From assembly GCA_945983355.1 (NCBI GenBank), contig CAMFSU010000018.1:1-35689 (forward strand): 35,689 nt of DNA, written 5' to 3'. The stretch is from an uncultured Clostridia bacterium. GTDB lineage: Bacteria > Bacillota > Clostridia > Oscillospirales > Acutalibacteraceae. The notes under the pieces were generated by a model, which saw only the letters and a list, made by a program, of their open reading frames with translations, was not told the origin of the DNA and ran no database searches. The stretch's first letter is position 1; each line of letters starts with the position of its first letter. The position numbers were made by a program, and so were the translations under genes. This document shows positions 13,822 to 21,403 of this stretch, piece by piece.

Positions 13822-14484
13822 ATGATTTCTATAGCTATTGATGGTCCTGCCGGGGCAGGTAAAAGCACATTATCAAGAAAAGCAGCTGAAGCGCTCGGCT
13901 TTATTTATGTAGATACAGGTGCGCTTTACCGTACAGTTGGTCTTAAATTTTCAAAGGCGGGCTTTGACACCGCACTTAACTGTGATGTTGCAGAAATTTT
14001 AAAGGATACAACTGTTGATATTCGTTTTGTAGGCGGCGAACAGCGTGTATTTTTAGATGGCTGTGATGTTAGCGAAGAAATTCGCACTCCTATCGCTTCT
14101 ATGATGGCTTCTGCCGTTTCGGCAAAGGGCGAGGTTAGGGCATTTCTTTTGGAAATGCAAAGAAAGCTTGCAAGAGAAAACAATGTTGTTATGGATGGCC
14201 GTGATATCGGCACAGTGGTTTTACCCAATGCTACACTTAAATTGTTTTTAACTGCTTCAGCCGAAGACCGTGCACAGCGCCGTTATAATGAGCTTATTGC
14301 AAAGGGCACAAACGTGACCTTTAAAGAGGTTTATGATGATATGGTGCAGCGTGATTATAATGACTCGCATCGTGAAATCGCTCCCTTAAAGCAGGCCGAG
14401 GATGCCGTTTTGCTTGACACCACGGGCTTCGAGGCAGAGCAGTCGTTAGAGCTTATTTTAAAAACTATTAAGGAAAGAATTTAA
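13822..14484 (+). CDS. cmk: Cytidylate kinase
   Basis: 220 residues. It phosphorylates CMP and dCMP with ATP, needed for CTP/dCTP supply. The P-loop is GPAGAGKST (8-16), followed by the family stretch FIYVDTGALYRTVGL. The NMP-binding insert of bacterial Cmk (about 60-90) and VVMDGRDIGTVVLPNATLK are present, with the lid RAQRRYNEL. AAGGAGAAATAAT precedes the ATG. It ends 3 nt before ispH-rpsA. In many Clostridia a plsC-type acyltransferase lies between cmk and ispH; here there is none. Confidence 0.97.
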   Translation: MISIAIDGPAGAGKSTLSRKAAEALGFIYVDTGALYRTVGLKFSKAGFDTALNCDVAEILKDTTVDIRFVGGEQRVFLDGCDVSEEIRTPIASMMASAVSAKGEVRAFLLEMQRKLARENNVVMDGRDIGTVVLPNATLKLFLTASAEDRAQRRYNELIAKGTNVTFKEVYDDMVQRDYNDSHREIAPLKQAEDAVLLDTTGFEAEQSLELILKTIKERI

Positions 14485-14487
14485 TAT

Positions 14488-16530
14488 ATGAATGTTACAC
14501 TTGCAAAAACCGCGGGCTTTTGCTTTGGTGTTAACCGCGCGGTTAATACTGTTTATGACTTACTCCAAAAGGGTGAAAGGGTTTGCACCTTGGGGCCTAT
14601 AATTCATAATCCTCAGCTTGTTGATGAGCTTTCGCAAAAGGGTGTCAGAATTGTAAATTCACCCGATGAAGCAAAATCTGGCGAAACGCTTGTAATCCGT
14701 TCACACGGGGTGGAAAAATCGGTTATAGATTATTGCACCCAAAACGGAATAAAATTTGTTGACGCCACCTGCACCTTTGTTTCAAAAATTCATAAAATTG
14801 TTTATGAAAAAAGCCGTGACGGTTATGTTGTTATAATTGCGGGGGATATAAATCATCAAGAGGTTAAGGGCATTGTTGGACACAGCGTGGGTGACACTTT
14901 TGTTGTTCAGGATGACCTTGAGCTTGAAGATTTACTTAGAAAAAACGGCAATTTTGCCGAAAAAAACCTAATATTGGTTTCTCAAACCACATTTAATAAA
15001 AAAGTTTGGCAAAAAATCGAAAAAAATTTAAAAAAAGTGTGTACAAATGCAGAAATTTTTGATACAATATGTAATGCGACTGCGATGAGGCAGCAAGAGG
15101 CCTTTGAGCTTTCTAAACTAAACGATGCAGTGGTTGTTATCGGTGGTAAGGGTAGCTCAAACACAGCAAAGCTTTTTGATGTGTGCAAGGCAAATTGCAG
15201 CAATACATATTGGGTTGAAACTGCTGATGAGTTAAATATCAGTGATTTTTCAAATTATGAGAATGTCGCTGTCGTTGCGGGTGCTTCTACACCTGCAGGT
15301 ATAATAAAGGAGGTCCTAAAAACCATGTCGGAAAATTTACAACCGGTTGAGCAACTTGAAGAAGTAGAGGTTGCTCCCAAAAGCTTCGAAGAAATGACAG
15401 ACGAGGAAGCATTTGAAGCTTCACTCAACAGCTTAACAGGCGACCAGAAGGTTACAGGTGTAGTTATTGCTGTTAATCCTTCGGAAATCACAGTTGATAT
15501 TGGCAGAGGTGTTACAGGTTATGTAACCGCTGGCGAATATTCATCTGACCCCAACGTTAACCTTGTTGATGAAGTTAAGGTTGATGACAAATTAAATCTC
15601 ATCATCATGAAAATCAGTGACCAAGAAGGCACTGCAATGCTTTCAAAGCGTCGTTATGATGCTATTGCCGGTTGGGATAATATAAAGGCTGCTAAAGATT
15701 CAGGCGAAATCCTTAAGGGTGTCGTTCGCGAAATCATTAAGGGTGGCGTAGTTGTTTATATTGACAACGTTAAGGTATTTATCCCCGCATCTCAGGCAAC
15801 TGCTTCAAGAAACGATTCTCTTGAAGAATTAAAAGGCAAGGAAGTTTCCTTCCGTATTATTGAAATCGGTCGCGGCCGCAGAGCTATCGGTTCTATCCGC
15901 AGCGTATTACGCGAAGAAAAGAAAGCAGCCGAAGAAAAGATTTGGGCAAACATTGCCGTTGGTGACCGTTTCACTGGTACAGTTAAGTCACTTACAAGCT
16001 ATGGCGCATTTGTTGACATCGGCGGTGTTGATGGTATGATTCATATTTCTGAGCTTTCTTGGGCAAGAATTAAGAATCCATCAGAGGTTGTTTTGGTTGG
16101 CGATACTGTTGAAGTATATGTTAAAGACCTTGATGCTGACAAGAAAAAGATTTCTCTTGGCTACAAGAAGGAAGATGAAAACCCCTGGGTTATCTTCCAA
16201 AACAATTACAATGTTGATGATGTTGTTAAGGTTACCATCGTTAGTATGACAACCTATGGTGCATTTGCACGCATCATCCCCGGCATTGATGGTTTAATCC
16301 ATATTTCTCAAATCGCTAACAAGCACATTGCTAAACCTCAAGACGAATTAACCGTTGGTCAAGAAGTTGAAGCAAAAATCACTGCTATTGATCTTGAAAA
16401 GAAACGCATCAGTCTTTCTATTCGTGCTTTACTTCCCGAAGAAGAAAAAGCAGAAGAAGCTGTAGAAGAGGTTGCCGAAGCTGCCGTAGAAGTAGTAGAA
16501 GAAGCTCCCGCTGAAGAAGCTGCTGAATAA
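14488..16530 (+). CDS. ispH-rpsA: IspH - ribosomal protein S1 fusion
   Basis: 680 residues in one frame. Residues 1 to about 278 are IspH, the [4Fe-4S] enzyme that makes IPP and DMAPP in the last step of the MEP pathway. Its cluster cysteines are Cys12 (GFCFGV), Cys95 (DATCTFV) and Cys195 (TICNAT), and the SHGV and GASTPA motifs are present. Residues about 319-388, 405-475, 491-561 and 577-647 are four S1 RNA-binding repeats, the last two being the best conserved (GAFVDIGGVDGMIHISELSW and GAFARIIPGIDGLIHISQ). The tail (650-680) is strongly acidic. This fusion is known in Clostridia. The S1 half also has its own SD and ATG inside the gene, listed separately. It is the last gene of the operon and shares a terminator with the converging CDF gene. 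Confidence 0.97.
   Translation: MNVTLAKTAGFCFGVNRAVNTVYDLLQKGERVCTLGPIIHNPQLVDELSQKGVRIVNSPDEAKSGETLVIRSHGVEKSVIDYCTQNGIKFVDATCTFVSKIHKIVYEKSRDGYVVIIAGDINHQEVKGIVGHSVGDTFVVQDDLELEDLLRKNGNFAEKNLILVSQTTFNKKVWQKIEKNLKKVCTNAEIFDTICNATAMRQQEAFELSKLNDAVVVIGGKGSSNTAKLFDVCKANCSNTYWVETADELNISDFSNYENVAVVAGASTPAGIIKEVLKTMSENLQPVEQLEEVEVAPKSFEEMTDEEAFEASLNSLTGDQKVTGVVIAVNPSEITVDIGRGVTGYVTAGEYSSDPNVNLVDEVKVDDKLNLIIMKISDQEGTAMLSKRRYDAIAGWDNIKAAKDSGEILKGVVREIIKGGVVVYIDNVKVFIPASQATASRNDSLEELKGKEVSFRIIEIGRGRRAIGSIRSVLREEKKAAEEKIWANIAVGDRFTGTVKSLTSYGAFVDIGGVDGMIHISELSWARIKNPSEVVLVGDTVEVYVKDLDADKKKISLGYKKEDENPWVIFQNNYNVDDVVKVTIVSMTTYGAFARIIPGIDGLIHISQIANKHIAKPQDELTVGQEVEAKITAIDLEKKRISLSIRALLPEEEKAEEAVEEVAEAAVEVVEEAPAEEAAE
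15306..15327 (+). promoter_or_regulatory. Internal ribosome binding site and start for free S1 protein
   Basis: AAAGGAGGT (15306-15314) followed after 10 nt by ATG (15325-15327), exactly at the join between the IspH and S1 parts (residue 280, MSENLQPVEQLEEVEV). It is one of the strongest SD matches in the window and would give a 401-residue four-repeat S1 besides the fusion. Confidence 0.7.
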
Positions 16531-16544
16531 TTAAAGCAAAAATT

Positions 16545-16573
16545 AACACCGCTCGGTAAGAGCGGTGTTTTTT
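16545..16573. terminator. Bidirectional terminator between ispH-rpsA and the CDF gene
   Basis: Perfect 10-bp stem AACACCGCTC (16545-16554) / GAGCGGTGTT (16560-16569) with loop GGTAA. T-rich tracts lie on both sides: TTTT on the plus strand (16570-16573) and AATTTTTG on the minus strand. It sits between two converging genes and should serve both. Confidence 0.9.
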
Positions 16574-16586
16574 ATATGTATTTAAT

Positions 16587-17771
16587 TTATCTTCCTGTAA
16601 AGTCGCGTTCGACAGTTATTACGCAAGAAAAGGTTGGGTTGATAAGCTTTGCAATTTGTGAAATTTTTTCTTTAAGTTCTTTTTCAGAAAGGTTAAAGTT
16701 TTGTGGAATAACAACGTCAAACACAAGGTTTGTTTGAGTGTTAGCCATAGGTGTCATACGAAAGTCGTGAAGGGTTAATTCATCATTTATAATCTTTATG
16801 CCATCACTTAACTGTTGGCGGGTGAAATTAACTTCTTCGTTGTTTACATCCATTGGGTCCATATGTATTACAAGCATAACACCTAAATTATCAAAAATTT
16901 CCTTTTCGCACAAATCAATTTGTTCGTGACAATGAACAATGTCTATGTCCTGCGGTACTTCAACATGTACCGACGCAAAAAGCCGACCGGGACCATAGTT
17001 ATGTATCATAAGGTCATGTATGCCGACAAATTCATCGTGAGATAATATAGCAGTTTCAATATTGGTTATAAGCTCGGGCGAGGGTGGCTCACCTAAAAGG
17101 CGGTTTAGGGTTTCTTTTGCGGCGTTAATGCCTGCCCAAAGAATAAATAAAGCAACCGCAATGCCCATAACAGCGTCCAAATTAAAGGGTAGAGTAACTA
17201 ATTTGCTTACCCCTACCGAAAGCAAAATTACCGCAGTTGCGATTGAATCATTTAAAGAATCCTGTGCGGTGGCAAGTAAGGTTTCGGAATCGATTTTTTT
17301 GCCGATTTTTCGGTTAAAAAGGAAAAGCCAAAGCTTAAGTATAACCGATACAGCCAACACAATTATTGAGGCAATAGAATATGTAGGCATTGGTGTGCCA
17401 TTCGTTATAGCGGTGACCGACGTCTTCATAAGCTCAAAACCAACAAGCAAAATTAAAATTGCCACAATAAATGCCGACATATATTCAATTCTGCCGTGAC
17501 CAAAGGGATGGTCTTTATCGGCGGGCTTGTTTGCAAGCTTAAAGCCAAGAATCGTTATAACTGACGAGCCCATATCCGAAAGGTTATTAAGACCGTCAGC
17601 CACAATAGAAATACTGTGTGTAAGTGAACCAATCGCTATTTTAAAAGCACAAAGGAAAAGGTTGCAAAGAATACCCACAACACCGCTCAAACTGCCATAT
17701 TGCTCACGCGTGGCATTGTCTTTAACATTGTTTGGGTTTTTAATAAAAAGTTTGGTTAAAAGCGCAGTCAT
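16587..17771 (-). CDS. Cation diffusion facilitator (CDF) metal exporter, possibly for manganese
   Basis: 394 residues. CDF proteins export divalent metals in exchange for protons. Six membrane helices are expected over about 30-215, then a cytoplasmic ferredoxin-like domain (about 225-310: GIHDLMIHNYGPGRLFASVHVEV) and an extra C-terminal alpha/beta stretch to 394. The transport site on helix 2 reads ADGLNNLSDMGSS, giving NxxxD (Asn62, Asp66). Helix 5 reads AQDSLNDSIA, giving DxxxD (Asp171, Asp175). An Asn/Asp + Asp/Asp site is the pattern associated with manganese CDFs such as MntE, whereas zinc members usually have histidine. The metal remains an inference. The start overlaps the ddl stop by one base, so it is coupled to the cell-wall genes. 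Confidence 0.92.
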   Translation of the reverse strand: MTALLTKLFIKNPNNVKDNATREQYGSLSGVVGILCNLFLCAFKIAIGSLTHSISIVADGLNNLSDMGSSVITILGFKLANKPADKDHPFGHGRIEYMSAFIVAILILLVGFELMKTSVTAITNGTPMPTYSIASIIVLAVSVILKLWLFLFNRKIGKKIDSETLLATAQDSLNDSIATAVILLSVGVSKLVTLPFNLDAVMGIAVALFILWAGINAAKETLNRLLGEPPSPELITNIETAILSHDEFVGIHDLMIHNYGPGRLFASVHVEVPQDIDIVHCHEQIDLCEKEIFDNLGVMLVIHMDPMDVNNEEVNFTRQQLSDGIKIINDELTLHDFRMTPMANTQTNLVFDVVIPQNFNLSEKELKEKISQIAKLINPTFSCVITVERDFTGR

Positions 17772-18964
17772 TATAGCTTTGCCCCTTTGGCACCCTTTGC
17801 ACCAAATGACACGCCCGATAAAATGTTAGTATCAATGGTGTAGGTGATATTTTCACGGTTTCTTTGGCGCTTAAAGGCAAGCTCAATTAAGCGGTCAATA
17901 AGGTCACGGTATTTAATACCTGTTGCTTCCCACAAATAAAATGCAAGCGAGCCGGGGATGGTGTTAATTTCGTTGGCGTAAACCGTGTCGGTTGCGGTAT
18001 CAATCATAAAGTCAATTCTAACAACACCGCTGGCACCTATTGCTTTAAATATCTTACAAGCCAAATCTCTTATTTCTTCGCTTTTTTCGGGGGATAAATC
18101 GGCAGGGATTTTACGGCTTAGGGAAGCCATACCCTTGCTTGAACCACCCTTTTTGGCGTTATTTAAGTATTTATCCTCATACGATAAAATTTCATCGTTC
18201 ATAAAGGGTTCTTCGCAAACGCTGGCTTCACATTCGTCGGGGTTACCTAAAACCGAGCAGTTGATTTCACGAAGCGAGGTAATTGCCTTTTCCACCAAAA
18301 CCTTGTCAGCAAAAGAAATTGCAAGCATAAGCGCATCATCAAGCTCGTTTTCGGCATTAACCTTGGTGATACCAACGCTGCTGCCTAAATTAACGGGTTT
18401 AACAATAAGGGGGAAGCCGATTTCGGCCTTTATTTTGTCGCAAATTGCCTGTTTTTCGGCAACATATTCGCGTGCACGGAAGGTAATGCAGTCCAAAACG
18501 GGAAGCCCTGCATTTTTAAGCACATCCTTAAACACTGCTTTATCCATACCGACAGCCGATGAAATAATATCACAGCCAACATAGGGTAAATTTAAGTATT
18601 CTAAATAGCCCTGAATTGTGCCGTCTTCACAGTTGGTGCCGTGAACAATCGGGAAAGCAATATCAATAACTGTGCCAATATTTTTTGAAAACAGCTTTTG
18701 TTCAACATTTTTCATAACCACATTGCCGTTTTCACGCATAAAATAAACCTTTTTGCACTTTTTAAAAAGCTCGGGTAAATTGCGGTATTCTTCAATGGTG
18801 AAAAGGCAGTCGCCTGTGTACATTTCACCGTCTTTACTTACATAAACGGGTGTAATGTCATACTTTTCGCGGTTGATTGCTCTCATTGCCTGAACGGCGG
18901 AAATAATTGAAACCTCGTGTTCAACTGTTCGGCAACCGTAAAAAACTGCAACATTTGTTTTCAT
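17771..18964 (-). CDS. ddl: D-alanine-D-alanine ligase, long omega-loop form
   Basis: 397 residues. It makes the D-Ala-D-Ala dipeptide for peptidoglycan, using ATP. Seen are EHEVS with the substrate-binding glutamate (Glu15), HGTNCEDGTIQGYLE (109-122), KPVNLGSSVG (189-198) in the ATP-grasp fold, and NEINTIPGS (331-339) for magnesium and substrate. Tyr262 in SYEDKY lines up with the tyrosine that marks D-Ala-D-Ala rather than D-Ala-D-lactate ligases. The omega loop that follows (about 266-288) is roughly ten residues longer than in E. coli Ddl and rich in Gly/Ser/Lys. The C-terminus has a GAK repeated three times (388-396), whose purine-rich codons also supply the ribosome site of the next gene. 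It lies 13 nt after the MurF-like gene. Confidence 0.93.
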   Translation of the reverse strand: MKTNVAVFYGCRTVEHEVSIISAVQAMRAINREKYDITPVYVSKDGEMYTGDCLFTIEEYRNLPELFKKCKKVYFMRENGNVVMKNVEQKLFSKNIGTVIDIAFPIVHGTNCEDGTIQGYLEYLNLPYVGCDIISSAVGMDKAVFKDVLKNAGLPVLDCITFRAREYVAEKQAICDKIKAEIGFPLIVKPVNLGSSVGITKVNAENELDDALMLAISFADKVLVEKAITSLREINCSVLGNPDECEASVCEEPFMNDEILSYEDKYLNNAKKGGSSKGMASLSRKIPADLSPEKSEEIRDLACKIFKAIGASGVVRIDFMIDTATDTVYANEINTIPGSLAFYLWEATGIKYRDLIDRLIELAFKRQRNRENITYTIDTNILSGVSFGAKGAKGAKL

Positions 18965-18977
18965 AATATATCTACCT

Positions 18978-20534
18978 CTAATTCAAATAATTATCCGGCA
19001 AATCGTTTTCAAAAAGAACAACGGTGTTACTGTCGGCAAGCTTGTTATAAATCTCCATTGCCTCTTTAAAGGAAGCAACAATATGCATATTTTCTTTGTT
19101 AAAGTCGGTGGTGTTTACCGCGTCGGCCATCGGCTTTGAACGGTTAAGACCAACTAAAATAATTATATCGGCGTTTTTAGCCGCTTCAAGACCTAAATTA
19201 AAGTTACATTCATATTCTTTTTCGCCAAGCTCGATAAGACCTGGGGTAACAACAACCTTTTTCATACCCTCAAACGAGCCAAGCACTCTTACTGCTTCAA
19301 GGCAACCCTCGGGGTTAGAGTTATAAGCATCGTCAATTAAAAGCGAGCCCTTGTTAAAGGGCTTCATTTCAAGGCGGTGTTCTGCGGGCTTAAGGGATGC
19401 AACGGCATATTTAATGTCATCCACCGAAACACCCAATTCATACGAAAGGGAGGCCGCACCGATAATGTCGATAATGCTGTGAAGTCCCAAAAGCTTGGTG
19501 TTTAAATCAAACGAAATATTGCCAATGTGCATTGTAAAGGTTGAACCAAACCTACCATAGCTTATATTGTCGGCATAGTATTTAAAGTCCTTATTTGTGC
19601 CGTAAATTTTACAGTCACGGTCAAGCTGACGGCTAATTTCGGCACTGTCGCCGTTGGCAAACACCATACCGCCGTTTTTGTCGACAAAATCAGCAAGCTC
19701 AAACTTGGTTTTGTAAACATTTTCAATGGTTTTAAAGGTTTCAAGGTGCTGTGGACCAACCGATGTTATAAGCGCGTGGTGTGGCTTTGCAATAACGCAA
19801 ACCTCTTTAATGTTGCCAACCTCTTTGGCACCCATTTCACAAACAAAAACCTCGGTCTGTGGCTTTAAATCAGAACGGATAGTGCGGGTAACACCCATTG
19901 GTGTATTAAAGCTATGGGGTGTGCAAACCGTGTTGAATTTTTCGCTTAATATACGGGTTAAAATAAACTTTGTGGTGGTTTTGCCATAGCTGCCCGTAAT
20001 GCCGATAACCTTTAAATTTTTGTGCCGTTTTATAATTTTTTTAGCATCGGAAATGTAATAAGCGTTCACCAAATGTTCAACAGGTGAATTTATAATTCGG
20101 CAAGCAATGCAAAGCAGAGGCGTTGCCATAGCAAAAACAACAACTGCAAAATAGCTGTATTCTATAAATACACCCAAAACACAAAGAGCCGAAAGCAACA
20201 AAACAGTTGTCACAAAAAGGCGCTTAACACGTGCGGTCATAACAAGTGCCTTTACCGATTTTTTTTGTGTTTTAATTGCGGTGTTAAGGCGAAAGCCAAA
20301 AATCATAACCGCAAGTATAAAAGCAGGAATATAAAGCTTAAAAATCAGTAAAGCAGAAGCACCCGCCGCAAAGATAATATCAAAAATCAACCTTGTGCGG
20401 TAAAATGGGAACACCCATTTTAAATATCGCGAAATGTAATAAGAATTTTGTTGCAGCATTTGGTATTGACGAACGGTTGAGCATATACCCGACAATGCCA
20501 AAAATACAAGTGTTAGAATAAAAAATATCATCAT
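18978..20534 (-). CDS. Membrane-anchored MurF-like ligase
   Basis: 518 residues. The C-terminal two thirds is a Mur ligase: the ATP loop is GITGSYGKTTTK (178-189), EMGAKEVGNI (233-242) and ITSVGPQHLETF (256-267) are middle-domain motifs, and DAYNSNPEGCLEA near residue 400 is the MurF-type C-domain signature. MurF adds D-Ala-D-Ala to UDP-MurNAc-tripeptide. The usual N-terminal UDP-sugar domain is absent. In its place are about five hydrophobic segments (1-21, 48-67, 68-85, 105-123, 127-147). The ligase part would therefore be held at the membrane, and the acceptor might be lipid-linked or otherwise different. The start overlaps the hydrolase stop (ATGA), and Ddl follows directly. Mur-ligase membership is secure; the exact substrate is not. 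Confidence 0.85.
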   Translation of the reverse strand: MMIFFILTLVFLALSGICSTVRQYQMLQQNSYYISRYLKWVFPFYRTRLIFDIIFAAGASALLIFKLYIPAFILAVMIFGFRLNTAIKTQKKSVKALVMTARVKRLFVTTVLLLSALCVLGVFIEYSYFAVVVFAMATPLLCIACRIINSPVEHLVNAYYISDAKKIIKRHKNLKVIGITGSYGKTTTKFILTRILSEKFNTVCTPHSFNTPMGVTRTIRSDLKPQTEVFVCEMGAKEVGNIKEVCVIAKPHHALITSVGPQHLETFKTIENVYKTKFELADFVDKNGGMVFANGDSAEISRQLDRDCKIYGTNKDFKYYADNISYGRFGSTFTMHIGNISFDLNTKLLGLHSIIDIIGAASLSYELGVSVDDIKYAVASLKPAEHRLEMKPFNKGSLLIDDAYNSNPEGCLEAVRVLGSFEGMKKVVVTPGLIELGEKEYECNFNLGLEAAKNADIIILVGLNRSKPMADAVNTTDFNKENMHIVASFKEAMEIYNKLADSNTVVLFENDLPDNYLN

Positions 20535-21295
20535 TTTACTCCTAAAAAGCTGTTAATAATTGCCTGTGCTTCAAAGGGACGCTCGCAAAAGGAATAATGC
20601 CCCGTGCCCTTTATAACACAAAGACCGCTGTCTTTAATTTTGCTTTCAATAATTTTCGCATCCGAAAGGGGTGTTGCGGTGTCATTTTCGCCCCAAATAA
20701 GCAGTGTGGGGGCGGTAATGTTGTGCAAAATATCACGCAAATCGGTGTTAACCAAGCTTACAAGTGTTTTGCGAAGCACCTCGGGTGCGGCGTTATAATC
20801 TGCCGAGCCATAATAATTTCTTGCTTTTTGCAAAAGCCCCTCGCTGTAATTTTTAATAACAGGCAAGGTTAAACCCCATTTAATAACCTTAAAGCTTTTT
20901 GCCCTGAATTTTTGCTTAAAGCTTTTTTTAGGTATAAGCCCTGCTGAGTCTAAAAGCACAATTTTAGGTGGGTTAACCATACCGGTTGCTGCCATTTTAA
21001 GTGTAACTCTGCCACCGTGCGAATGACCGAACATAATAGGGTTTTCAATATTAAGCTTTTTCATAAATTTAAGAACAAAATCGCAGTAATCGTCCAAATT
21101 CCACGGGGTTTCCATTGTGTCAGAACCTGCACAGCCGGGGAAGTTAACCGCAACCACGCGGTAGTCATTTTTTAAAGAATTTATAATGCCGCGATAAACC
21201 AAAAACGATGAATTCCATCCGTGTAAAAGTAACACGGGCGCACCGCTGCCTTCTTCGGTATATTCTATGTTTAAGCCATCAATATCTATGTTCAT
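20531..21295 (-). CDS. Alpha/beta hydrolase
   Basis: 254 residues. The fold is clear: oxyanion motif LLLHGWNSS (22-30), nucleophile elbow GHSHGG with Ser92, acid Asp205 in WGENDTATPL, and His233 in GTGHYSF. It resembles the broad COG0596 group of esterases, lipases and peptidases, and has a helical cap between about 120 and 180 (basic: KKSFKQKFRAKSFKVIKW). No signal peptide is visible, so it is cytoplasmic. It is the first gene of the minus-strand unit with the MurF-like ligase, Ddl and CDF exporter, and it overlaps the ligase start. A role in cell-envelope precursor metabolism is suggested only by this context. Confidence 0.9.
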   Translation of the reverse strand: MNIDIDGLNIEYTEEGSGAPVLLLHGWNSSFLVYRGIINSLKNDYRVVAVNFPGCAGSDTMETPWNLDDYCDFVLKFMKKLNIENPIMFGHSHGGRVTLKMAATGMVNPPKIVLLDSAGLIPKKSFKQKFRAKSFKVIKWGLTLPVIKNYSEGLLQKARNYYGSADYNAAPEVLRKTLVSLVNTDLRDILHNITAPTLLIWGENDTATPLSDAKIIESKIKDSGLCVIKGTGHYSFCERPFEAQAIINSFLGVK

Positions 21296-21323
21296 AATAA
21301 CTCCATTATATAATATTAAATAT

Positions 21324-21332
21324 ATTATACCA
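21324..21332 (-). promoter_or_regulatory. Extended -10 promoter for the hydrolase-murF-ddl-CDF unit
   Basis: On the minus strand TGGTATAAT (21332-21324) is an extended -10, 28 nt before the ATG. No good -35 stands 17 nt upstream. A GGAG site follows just before the ATG. Confidence 0.55.
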
Positions 21333-21372
21333 AATATTTACTTGAAATAGAAGACCTAATTTTAAAAAAATC

Positions 21373-21403
21373 AAAAAAAGAACCCGCTTTTTGCGGGTTC
21401 TTT
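21373..21403 (-). terminator. Intrinsic terminator of the ABC transporter gene
   Basis: Perfect 11-bp stem AAAGAACCCGC (21377-21387) / GCGGGTTCTTT (21393-21403), 5-nt loop. On the minus strand the stem ends in a run of seven T residues (21379-21373). It begins 5 nt past the stop. Confidence 0.92.

Follow-up and report, generated by a model that had tools for sequence, protein, structure and literature searches.

A membrane-embedded MurF-type ligase in a three-gene cassette that very likely stands in for MurF and Ddl in Clostridia

How are the last cytoplasmic steps of peptidoglycan precursor synthesis completed in a bacterium whose only MurF-like ligase is predicted to be embedded in the membrane? 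MurF and Ddl are regarded as essential to wall synthesis, and in the textbook order both act before MraY. The question is raised by a stretch of 35,689 nucleotides from an uncultured Clostridia bacterium of the family Acutalibacteraceae (assembly GCA_945983355.1, contig CAMFSU010000018.1), which is the entire contig C18 of a 1.57-Mb genome (completeness 97.73%) and is referred to here as the window. It encodes in succession an alpha/beta hydrolase, a MurF-type ligase with predicted transmembrane (TM) helices, termed TM-MurF, and a protein of the Ddl (D-alanine--D-alanine ligase) family. On balance, the best explanation as a whole is probably that this cassette replaces MurF and Ddl at the membrane, with the ligase probably acting on a lipid-linked MurNAc-tripeptide. 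Comparison of genomes makes it very likely that the trio of genes takes the place of MurF and Ddl, while a lipid-linked acceptor would be an even call.

The anatomy of the ligase agrees with an earlier note on this DNA, drawn from the letters alone, according to which the N-domain of MurF is missing, about five membrane helices take its place, and the ATP and MurF-type C-terminal motifs are kept. Pfam matches Mur_ligase_M and Mur_ligase_C in the protein and no Mur_ligase N-domain (PF01225), which the same scan detects in E. coli MurF and in one canonical MurF of the order. The match to the MurF profile TIGR01143 begins only at profile position 69 and scores about 214 bits (214.2-214.5), under the curated cut-off of 288.6. 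TM-MurF carries the catalytic motifs of MurF in its middle and C-terminal Mur ligase domains, the family profile finds its top PDB match in 1gg4 (E 4.7e-57), and the protein ends just past Mur_ligase_C in ENDLPDNY-LN. The gene arrangement proposed in the same note, with the ligase translationally coupled to the hydrolase and next to a Ddl, is also borne out: the hydrolase and ligase genes meet in an ATGA overlap, which is compatible with translational coupling, and the Ddl gene starts 13 bases past the ligase stop.

In a tree of the shared ligase domains, 33 TM-MurF sequences form one clade and 26 canonical MurF sequences, including that of E. coli, form its sister clade, with bootstrap/SH-aLRT support of 99/95 and 98/92, respectively, the bootstrap not being fully settled. 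MurE served as the outgroup, and E. coli MurF, on a long branch, was the sole MurF included from beyond the Clostridia. TM-MurF falls outside the clade formed by the 26 canonical MurF sequences sampled. Of the 81 positions that are at least 90% conserved in the TM group and the 65 that are at least 85% conserved in canonical MurF, 34 coincide and carry the same letter, and 7 coincide and carry different letters.

The N-terminal region of TM-MurF shows three hydrophobic stretches in the mean hydropathy of 67 homologues, at about residues 5-21, 49-86, and 107-147, whose lengths fit one, two, and two helices and thus suggest five in all. Under this division, the mean number of Lys and Arg residues is 4.1, 7.3, and 5.6 in loops A, C, and E, and 0.3 and 1.0 in the two short loops. 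By the positive-inside rule, which is used for orienting membrane proteins, this distribution would put loops A, C, and E, together with the ligase, on the cytoplasmic side. Seven residues of the membrane domain are invariant in all 67 homologues (Q28, Y32, T100, R102, R105, P151, and A164) and an eighth, E153, is present in 66; all eight fall in predicted cytoplasmic loops. No Pfam family was matched by more than 2 of 50 members of the domain. Its origin from diacylglycerol kinase was considered and rejected as a chance match, since PF01219 (E 9.1e-4) reached 19.5 bits in the window's domain against a cut-off of 22.3 and was found in only 2 of the 50. The joining of membrane domain and ligase is no chance artefact, as the fusion is found in 34 of 37 genomes of the window's genus and in other families of Clostridia. 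Three loci (L099 5411-5989, L101 5408-5989, and L103 5399-5977) carry, between the hydrolase and TM-MurF, a stand-alone diverged copy of the membrane domain of 193-194 aa, so that the domain may serve a purpose by itself.

The genome of the window encodes six proteins with Mur_ligase_M, namely two MurE (DNPR motif), MurD, MurC, FolC, and the window ligase. Here and below, the names MurC, MurD, MurE, FolC, CarB, vanH/X/R/S, cmk, plsC, and ispH were assigned by visual inspection or by resemblance to a handful of reference sequences, except where a profile is named. No protein of the genome exceeds the TIGR01143 cut-off, the window ligase being the best match, and no second MurF was found in the 97.73% complete assembly. 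The same genome yielded no second Ddl, its other PF07478 match being a 1058-aa frame that by eye resembles carbamoyl-phosphate synthase, and in its own dcw cluster mraY directly follows murE. Read from sequence, TM-MurF is the lineage's MurF and, with the Ddl alongside, provides the cell's only MurF and only Ddl. The two MurE-like genes with DNPR lie at G000:C20 79348-79938 and G000:C62 22969-23571.

The relation between the two ligase types was followed across 147 genomes of the order with a TIGR01143 profile search whose match list is complete to about 1e-44. A canonical MurF over the cut-off is present in 112 genomes and the TM type in 31, while none has both and four have neither (G047, G069, G104, and G158). 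The TM type was counted where the sole match starts at profile position 62-75; G137, whose gene is split across two contig ends and unmatched by the profile search, was included, and G069, a contig-edge fragment with other motifs, was left among the four. The membrane domain itself is observed in 30 of the 31, the contig of the remaining genome (G130) starting inside the ligase. The module hydrolase (1.3e-71 or better) occurs in 30 of the 147 genomes, all within the 31 and in none of the 112; the next match, at 1.6e-22, is an additional hit within a module genome, and no canonical genome does better than 9.6e-20. The hydrolase is missing from one module genome, G150, where a contig begins within the ligase gene. 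Matches to the module Ddl at 5.9e-110 or better occur in all 31 module genomes and in no others, the strongest match in a canonical genome being 3.4e-87. For the 31 module against the 112 canonical genomes, Fisher's test gives P values of 4e-32 (Ddl) and 5e-30 (hydrolase), uncorrected for kinship. Both MurF types occur within each of six families (f1, f7, f13, f18, f20, and f26), so the swap has recurred and kinship alone does not explain the pattern. In G057 the three module genes lie on three separate contigs and all are retained. These patterns support the view that the three genes would form one functional module. The earlier note's treatment of the genes as one system thereby gains ground through co-occurrence, whereas its suggestion of a second pathway loses it, the genome search for a separate canonical murF having found none and no other ddl. 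That note also held that the absence of any other murF, together with normal UDP-MurNAc-pentapeptide formation by this enzyme, would make it simply the lineage's MurF; the absence is what was found.

The exchange is also visible within the window's genus, where full-length TM-MurF is missing from three genomes (G004, G018, and G032) that carry a canonical ddl-murF pair, and where the hydrolase is missing from exactly the same three among 36 relatives. In G004 and G032 an orphan membrane domain of 178-186 aa lies directly 5' of the gene for a CDF cation-efflux transporter, at the expected end of the cassette. The G032 copy shares 68% identity with the membrane domain of an intact relative, and no orphan domain was found in G018, which is 84% complete. 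Between G004 and G032 the ratio of nonsynonymous to synonymous substitution rates (dN/dS) is about 0.36 for the orphan domain and about 0.09 for the CDF gene, weak evidence given that dS is near saturation; selection on the orphan domain may be relaxed and yet perhaps not free.

A similar vacancy is seen where murF usually resides. In the canonical regions measured, 7 out of 13, murF occupies the 1372-1479 bases that separate murE from mraY. Among 14 murE regions of module genomes (13 fetched and the window genome's own), murE and mraY were both found in 10, and in 9 of these no more than 180 bases separate the blast ends, leaving no room for murF. The tenth, in G437, holds a decayed MurF-like remnant of 266 aa between the two genes (L220 6408-7205), with 18.8% identity over MurF residues 30-248.

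A profile of the membrane domain matches 23 of 398 genomes drawn from the phylum, the window's own included, and no MurF over the cut-off is present in 20 of the other 22. A scan of named genome contigs, in which the best 80 of at least 80 loci were considered, placed TM-MurF in Butyrivibrio proteoclasticus P18, Ruminococcus flavefaciens MC2020, Diplocloster agilis ASD5720, and Lachnospiraceae bacterium P6A3. These four named isolate genomes (G575-G578) yielded no MurF above the cut-off, their top match being of the TM type. In a fifth genome, labelled Muribaculaceae and probably a mixed assembly, the TM type is accompanied by an 830-aa frame that matches the MurF profile over its whole length. 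Both neighbours, hydrolase and Ddl, satisfy a strict rule in 57 of the best 80 loci; the remaining 23 include loci at contig ends, loci with wider gaps or overlaps, with an extra gene inserted, or with the genes in a different order, and some (e.g., L107, L125, L143, and L145) in which no Ddl was found near the ligase. TM-MurF also appears in records titled Alistipes, Porphyromonadaceae, Synergistaceae, Bacteroides, Muribaculaceae, and Bacteroidales (L101, L107, L110, L116, L120, L125, L131, L143, L145, L146, L147, and L149), which are probably mislabelled or mixed, L125 being the one checked.

The Ddl of the module keeps the catalytic equipment of its family. In the numbering of E. coli DdlB, E15, H63, K97, K144, S150, E180, E187, K215, Y216, R255, D257, E270, N272, and G276 are retained in 79/79 sequences; the roles given here to these residues and to the second-substrate loop are those of the E. 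coli enzyme. The equivalent of Ser281 is Tyr in 78 of the 79 and His in one, a single short motif being common to all. The second-substrate (D-Ala2) loop is four residues shorter than the canonical one in all 29 module rows displayed, the omega loop is longer in the four rows displayed, and the C-terminal tail is conserved (R366, R368, N380, L382, G388, and K390 at 95-97% of 73 sequences). The window Ddl scores 334.5 against the NCBIfam D-Ala-D-Ala ligase model (cut-off 262). A Van-type identity was rejected, as the protein falls far under the cut-offs of all Van models among the families listed (25 of 62).

The hydrolase of the module has the triad S92, D205, and H233, with R96 beside the nucleophile elbow. 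Among 77 aligned hydrolases, the window's included, S92, D205, and R96 are present in all and H233 in 99%. An Arg following the nucleophile elbow is presumably a carboxylate binder. The window hydrolase remains under every NCBIfam cut-off among the families listed.

It is proposed that in some gut Clostridia the cassette would be a self-contained substitute for the last two cytoplasmic steps of peptidoglycan precursor synthesis. The altered Ddl would make the terminal dipeptide, most likely D-Ala-D-Ala, and TM-MurF, at the membrane's cytoplasmic face, would use ATP and the usual Mur-ligase chemistry to join it to the MurNAc-tripeptide. The acceptor would most likely be lipid I or lipid II with a MurNAc-tripeptide, as suggested by the absence of a UDP domain, the conserved basic cytoplasmic surface, and the precedent of MurT; the MurF step would then come after MraY. 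The most likely substrate of the hydrolase would be an ester or peptide from this pathway that bears a carboxylate, and the enzyme might, as a guess, trim stems to the tripeptide usable by TM-MurF. A reordered pathway in full, in which MraY moves MurNAc-tripeptide and TM-MurF finishes the stem on lipid I or II with the module Ddl and hydrolase, the terminal residue perhaps being non-standard, is a serious candidate that falls somewhat short of being probable.

Several observations weigh against the replacement of MurF and Ddl at the membrane as set out above, and some of them feed rival explanations. By the test used, no column of MraY separates 10 module from 8 canonical genomes, so there is no visible adaptation of MraY to a tripeptide substrate. 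This would suit a simpler arrangement, in which TM-MurF is the lineage's MurF with a tether, joining UDP-MurNAc-tripeptide to D-Ala-D-Ala while the membrane domain just holds the enzyme near MraY or MurG. A tether is also compatible with a MurF-like core in the genome's only MurF, and with a membrane domain that is less conserved than the whole protein (23-76% against 36-84% identity between the window and the same 15 homologues). It is nevertheless unlikely, given that PF01225 is absent, that the eight invariant or near-invariant loop positions exceed the needs of a plain anchor, and that the constant hydrolase is left unexplained. The hydrolase is also a difficulty for the preferred explanation, its substrate assignment being a guess. 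Further difficulties are G158, which at 99% completeness (62-85% in the other three genomes with neither type) has neither MurF type at E 1e-40 and an ordinary Ddl, and the weaker additional Ddl-family matches in 4 of the 31 module genomes (G099, G103, G144, and G172), which show that the module Ddl is not always the only one.

The remodelled second-substrate loop of the Ddl likewise means that the dipeptide could differ from D-Ala-D-Ala. In the corresponding rival, the terminal dipeptide that the module produces and adds is a non-standard one, which the hydrolase edits or recycles; the Ser281 to Tyr change, the shortened loop, and a C-terminal motif of TM-MurF unlike that of MurF all speak for it. 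Yet the Glu15-Ser150-Tyr216 triad, Lys215, and Arg255 all have intact counterparts throughout the family, and the window Ddl passes the D-Ala-D-Ala model and lies far below the listed Van cut-offs, which leaves this rival improbable. It draws some support from G546, one of two among the 22 phylum-sample module genomes in which a canonical MurF accompanies the module, again contrary to a simple replacement. There the canonical murF lies in a vanR/S-murF-vanH-ligase-vanX-like cluster (L186 4129-11264), so that in this genome the canonical MurF comes with a van-like cluster; in the other, G363, it lies on a contig with leu genes that is possibly foreign DNA. The MurF of G546 clusters with the MurF of two genomes of the window's family. 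G546 and G363 are also what favours a second pathway that runs in parallel with normal MurF and serves a particular polymer or condition. Such a pathway is highly improbable, as the window's genome has no other MurF, unless one is hidden in the missing 2% or so of the assembly, and as the two types exclude one another in the order and no canonical MurF passes the cut-off in the four isolates.

At the locus itself, the hydrolase, ligase, Ddl, and CDF genes form a run flanked on both sides by terminator-like hairpins (Table 1), and from this layout the three cassette genes and the CDF gene are taken to be one operon. A CDF gene follows the cassette in three of four other loci of the genus (G013, G007, and G022, but not G024), and the transporter is a neighbour within the window's genus, outside the module. 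The promoter-like site carries little weight, as 17 such sites occur across the region against 12.9 expected. Adjoining the operon on the opposite strand are a cmk-like gene and then an IspH-S1 fusion-like ORF (window 13822-16530). The dispersed module hydrolase of G057 lies directly 5' of a similar run of cmk, acyltransferase, and ispH genes.

Table 1. Features of the cassette and its surroundings, in window positions unless a locus is named.
Feature	Location	Strand	Details
Alpha/beta serine hydrolase (ABH) of module	20531..21295	-	254 aa; Pfam Abhydrolase_1 E 3.5e-26
TM-MurF, membrane-embedded MurF-type ligase	18978..20534	-	518 aa
Membrane domain of TM-MurF, residues 1-175	20010..20534	-	five predicted TM helices
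Mur_ligase_M (ATP-binding) domain	19452..20000	-	PF08245 E 8.4e-34
Mur_ligase_C domain	19011..19379	-	PF02875 E 9.7e-10 and conservation; MurF-type DDAYNSNP motif
Module-type Ddl	17771..18964	-	397 aa; PF07478 and PF01820
CDF cation-efflux transporter, operon gene 4	16587..17771	-	TAATG overlap with Ddl
Promoter-like TTGGTA-17-TATAAT	21305..21333	-	directly 5' of hydrolase gene; weak
Terminator-like hairpin ahead of operon	21377..21403	-	3' of upstream ABC-FtsX gene
Terminator-like hairpin	16545..16569	unassigned (.)	3' of CDF gene
Orphan membrane domains, still open	L056 7452-7985; L057 7611-8168		G004, G032

A family sister to MurF that replaces MurF and Ddl in cultured bacteria could shift the point at which the D-Ala-D-Ala terminus is added, and the module makes the order of the wall-precursor steps testable. 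TM-MurF explains the apparently missing murF of such genomes, and it is a target possibly missed by inhibitors built for soluble MurF. No description of a membrane-embedded MurF was found among the titles and abstract openings listed from the open-licence literature.

Among known enzymes, MurF itself (TIGR01143; E. coli MurF, PDB 1gg4) shares with TM-MurF the P-loop, the E-x-G and H/K motifs, a DDxYN-type motif, and the ATP-binding and C-terminal domains, and TM-MurF is the genome's only candidate for the MurF reaction. The two differ in that TM-MurF has a membrane domain where MurF has its UDP-binding N-domain, and in that TM-MurF ends in ENDLPDNY where MurF ends in L-x-K-x-S. The module Ddl resembles Ddl in its ATP-grasp Ddl domains and in its 14 conserved DdlB catalytic positions, and departs from it in the Tyr at Ser281, the shorter second-substrate loop, the longer omega loop of the rows displayed, and the conserved C-terminal tail. 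MurT/GatD is the lipid II isoglutaminyl synthase, in which GatD is the glutaminase-type subunit and the stem is amidated. Certain van clusters also encode a Ddl-family ligase and MurF together, as described for the vanI cluster of Desulfitobacterium hafniense (PMC4229326) and the van loci of Ktedonobacteria (PMC9689679), each of which carries its own murF. Unlike these, the module provides the cell's only MurF and Ddl, with the MurF embedded in the membrane, and no vanX, vanH, or two-component genes were seen beside it among window ORFs of at least 150 aa inspected by eye. The closest model for the acceptor is MurT, described as a Mur ligase without the UDP-binding N-domain that acts on lipid II, where the authors consider that an N-domain of the UDP-binding type would likely clash with the membrane (PMC6113224). 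TM-MurF likewise lacks this domain and has a partner enzyme; in contrast to MurT/GatD, its partner gene encodes an alpha/beta hydrolase and not GatD, its score with the MurT profile is 21.3 bits (cut-off 800), and its N-terminus is a membrane domain where that of MurT is reported as a short, disordered segment of 35-37 residues (PMC6113224).

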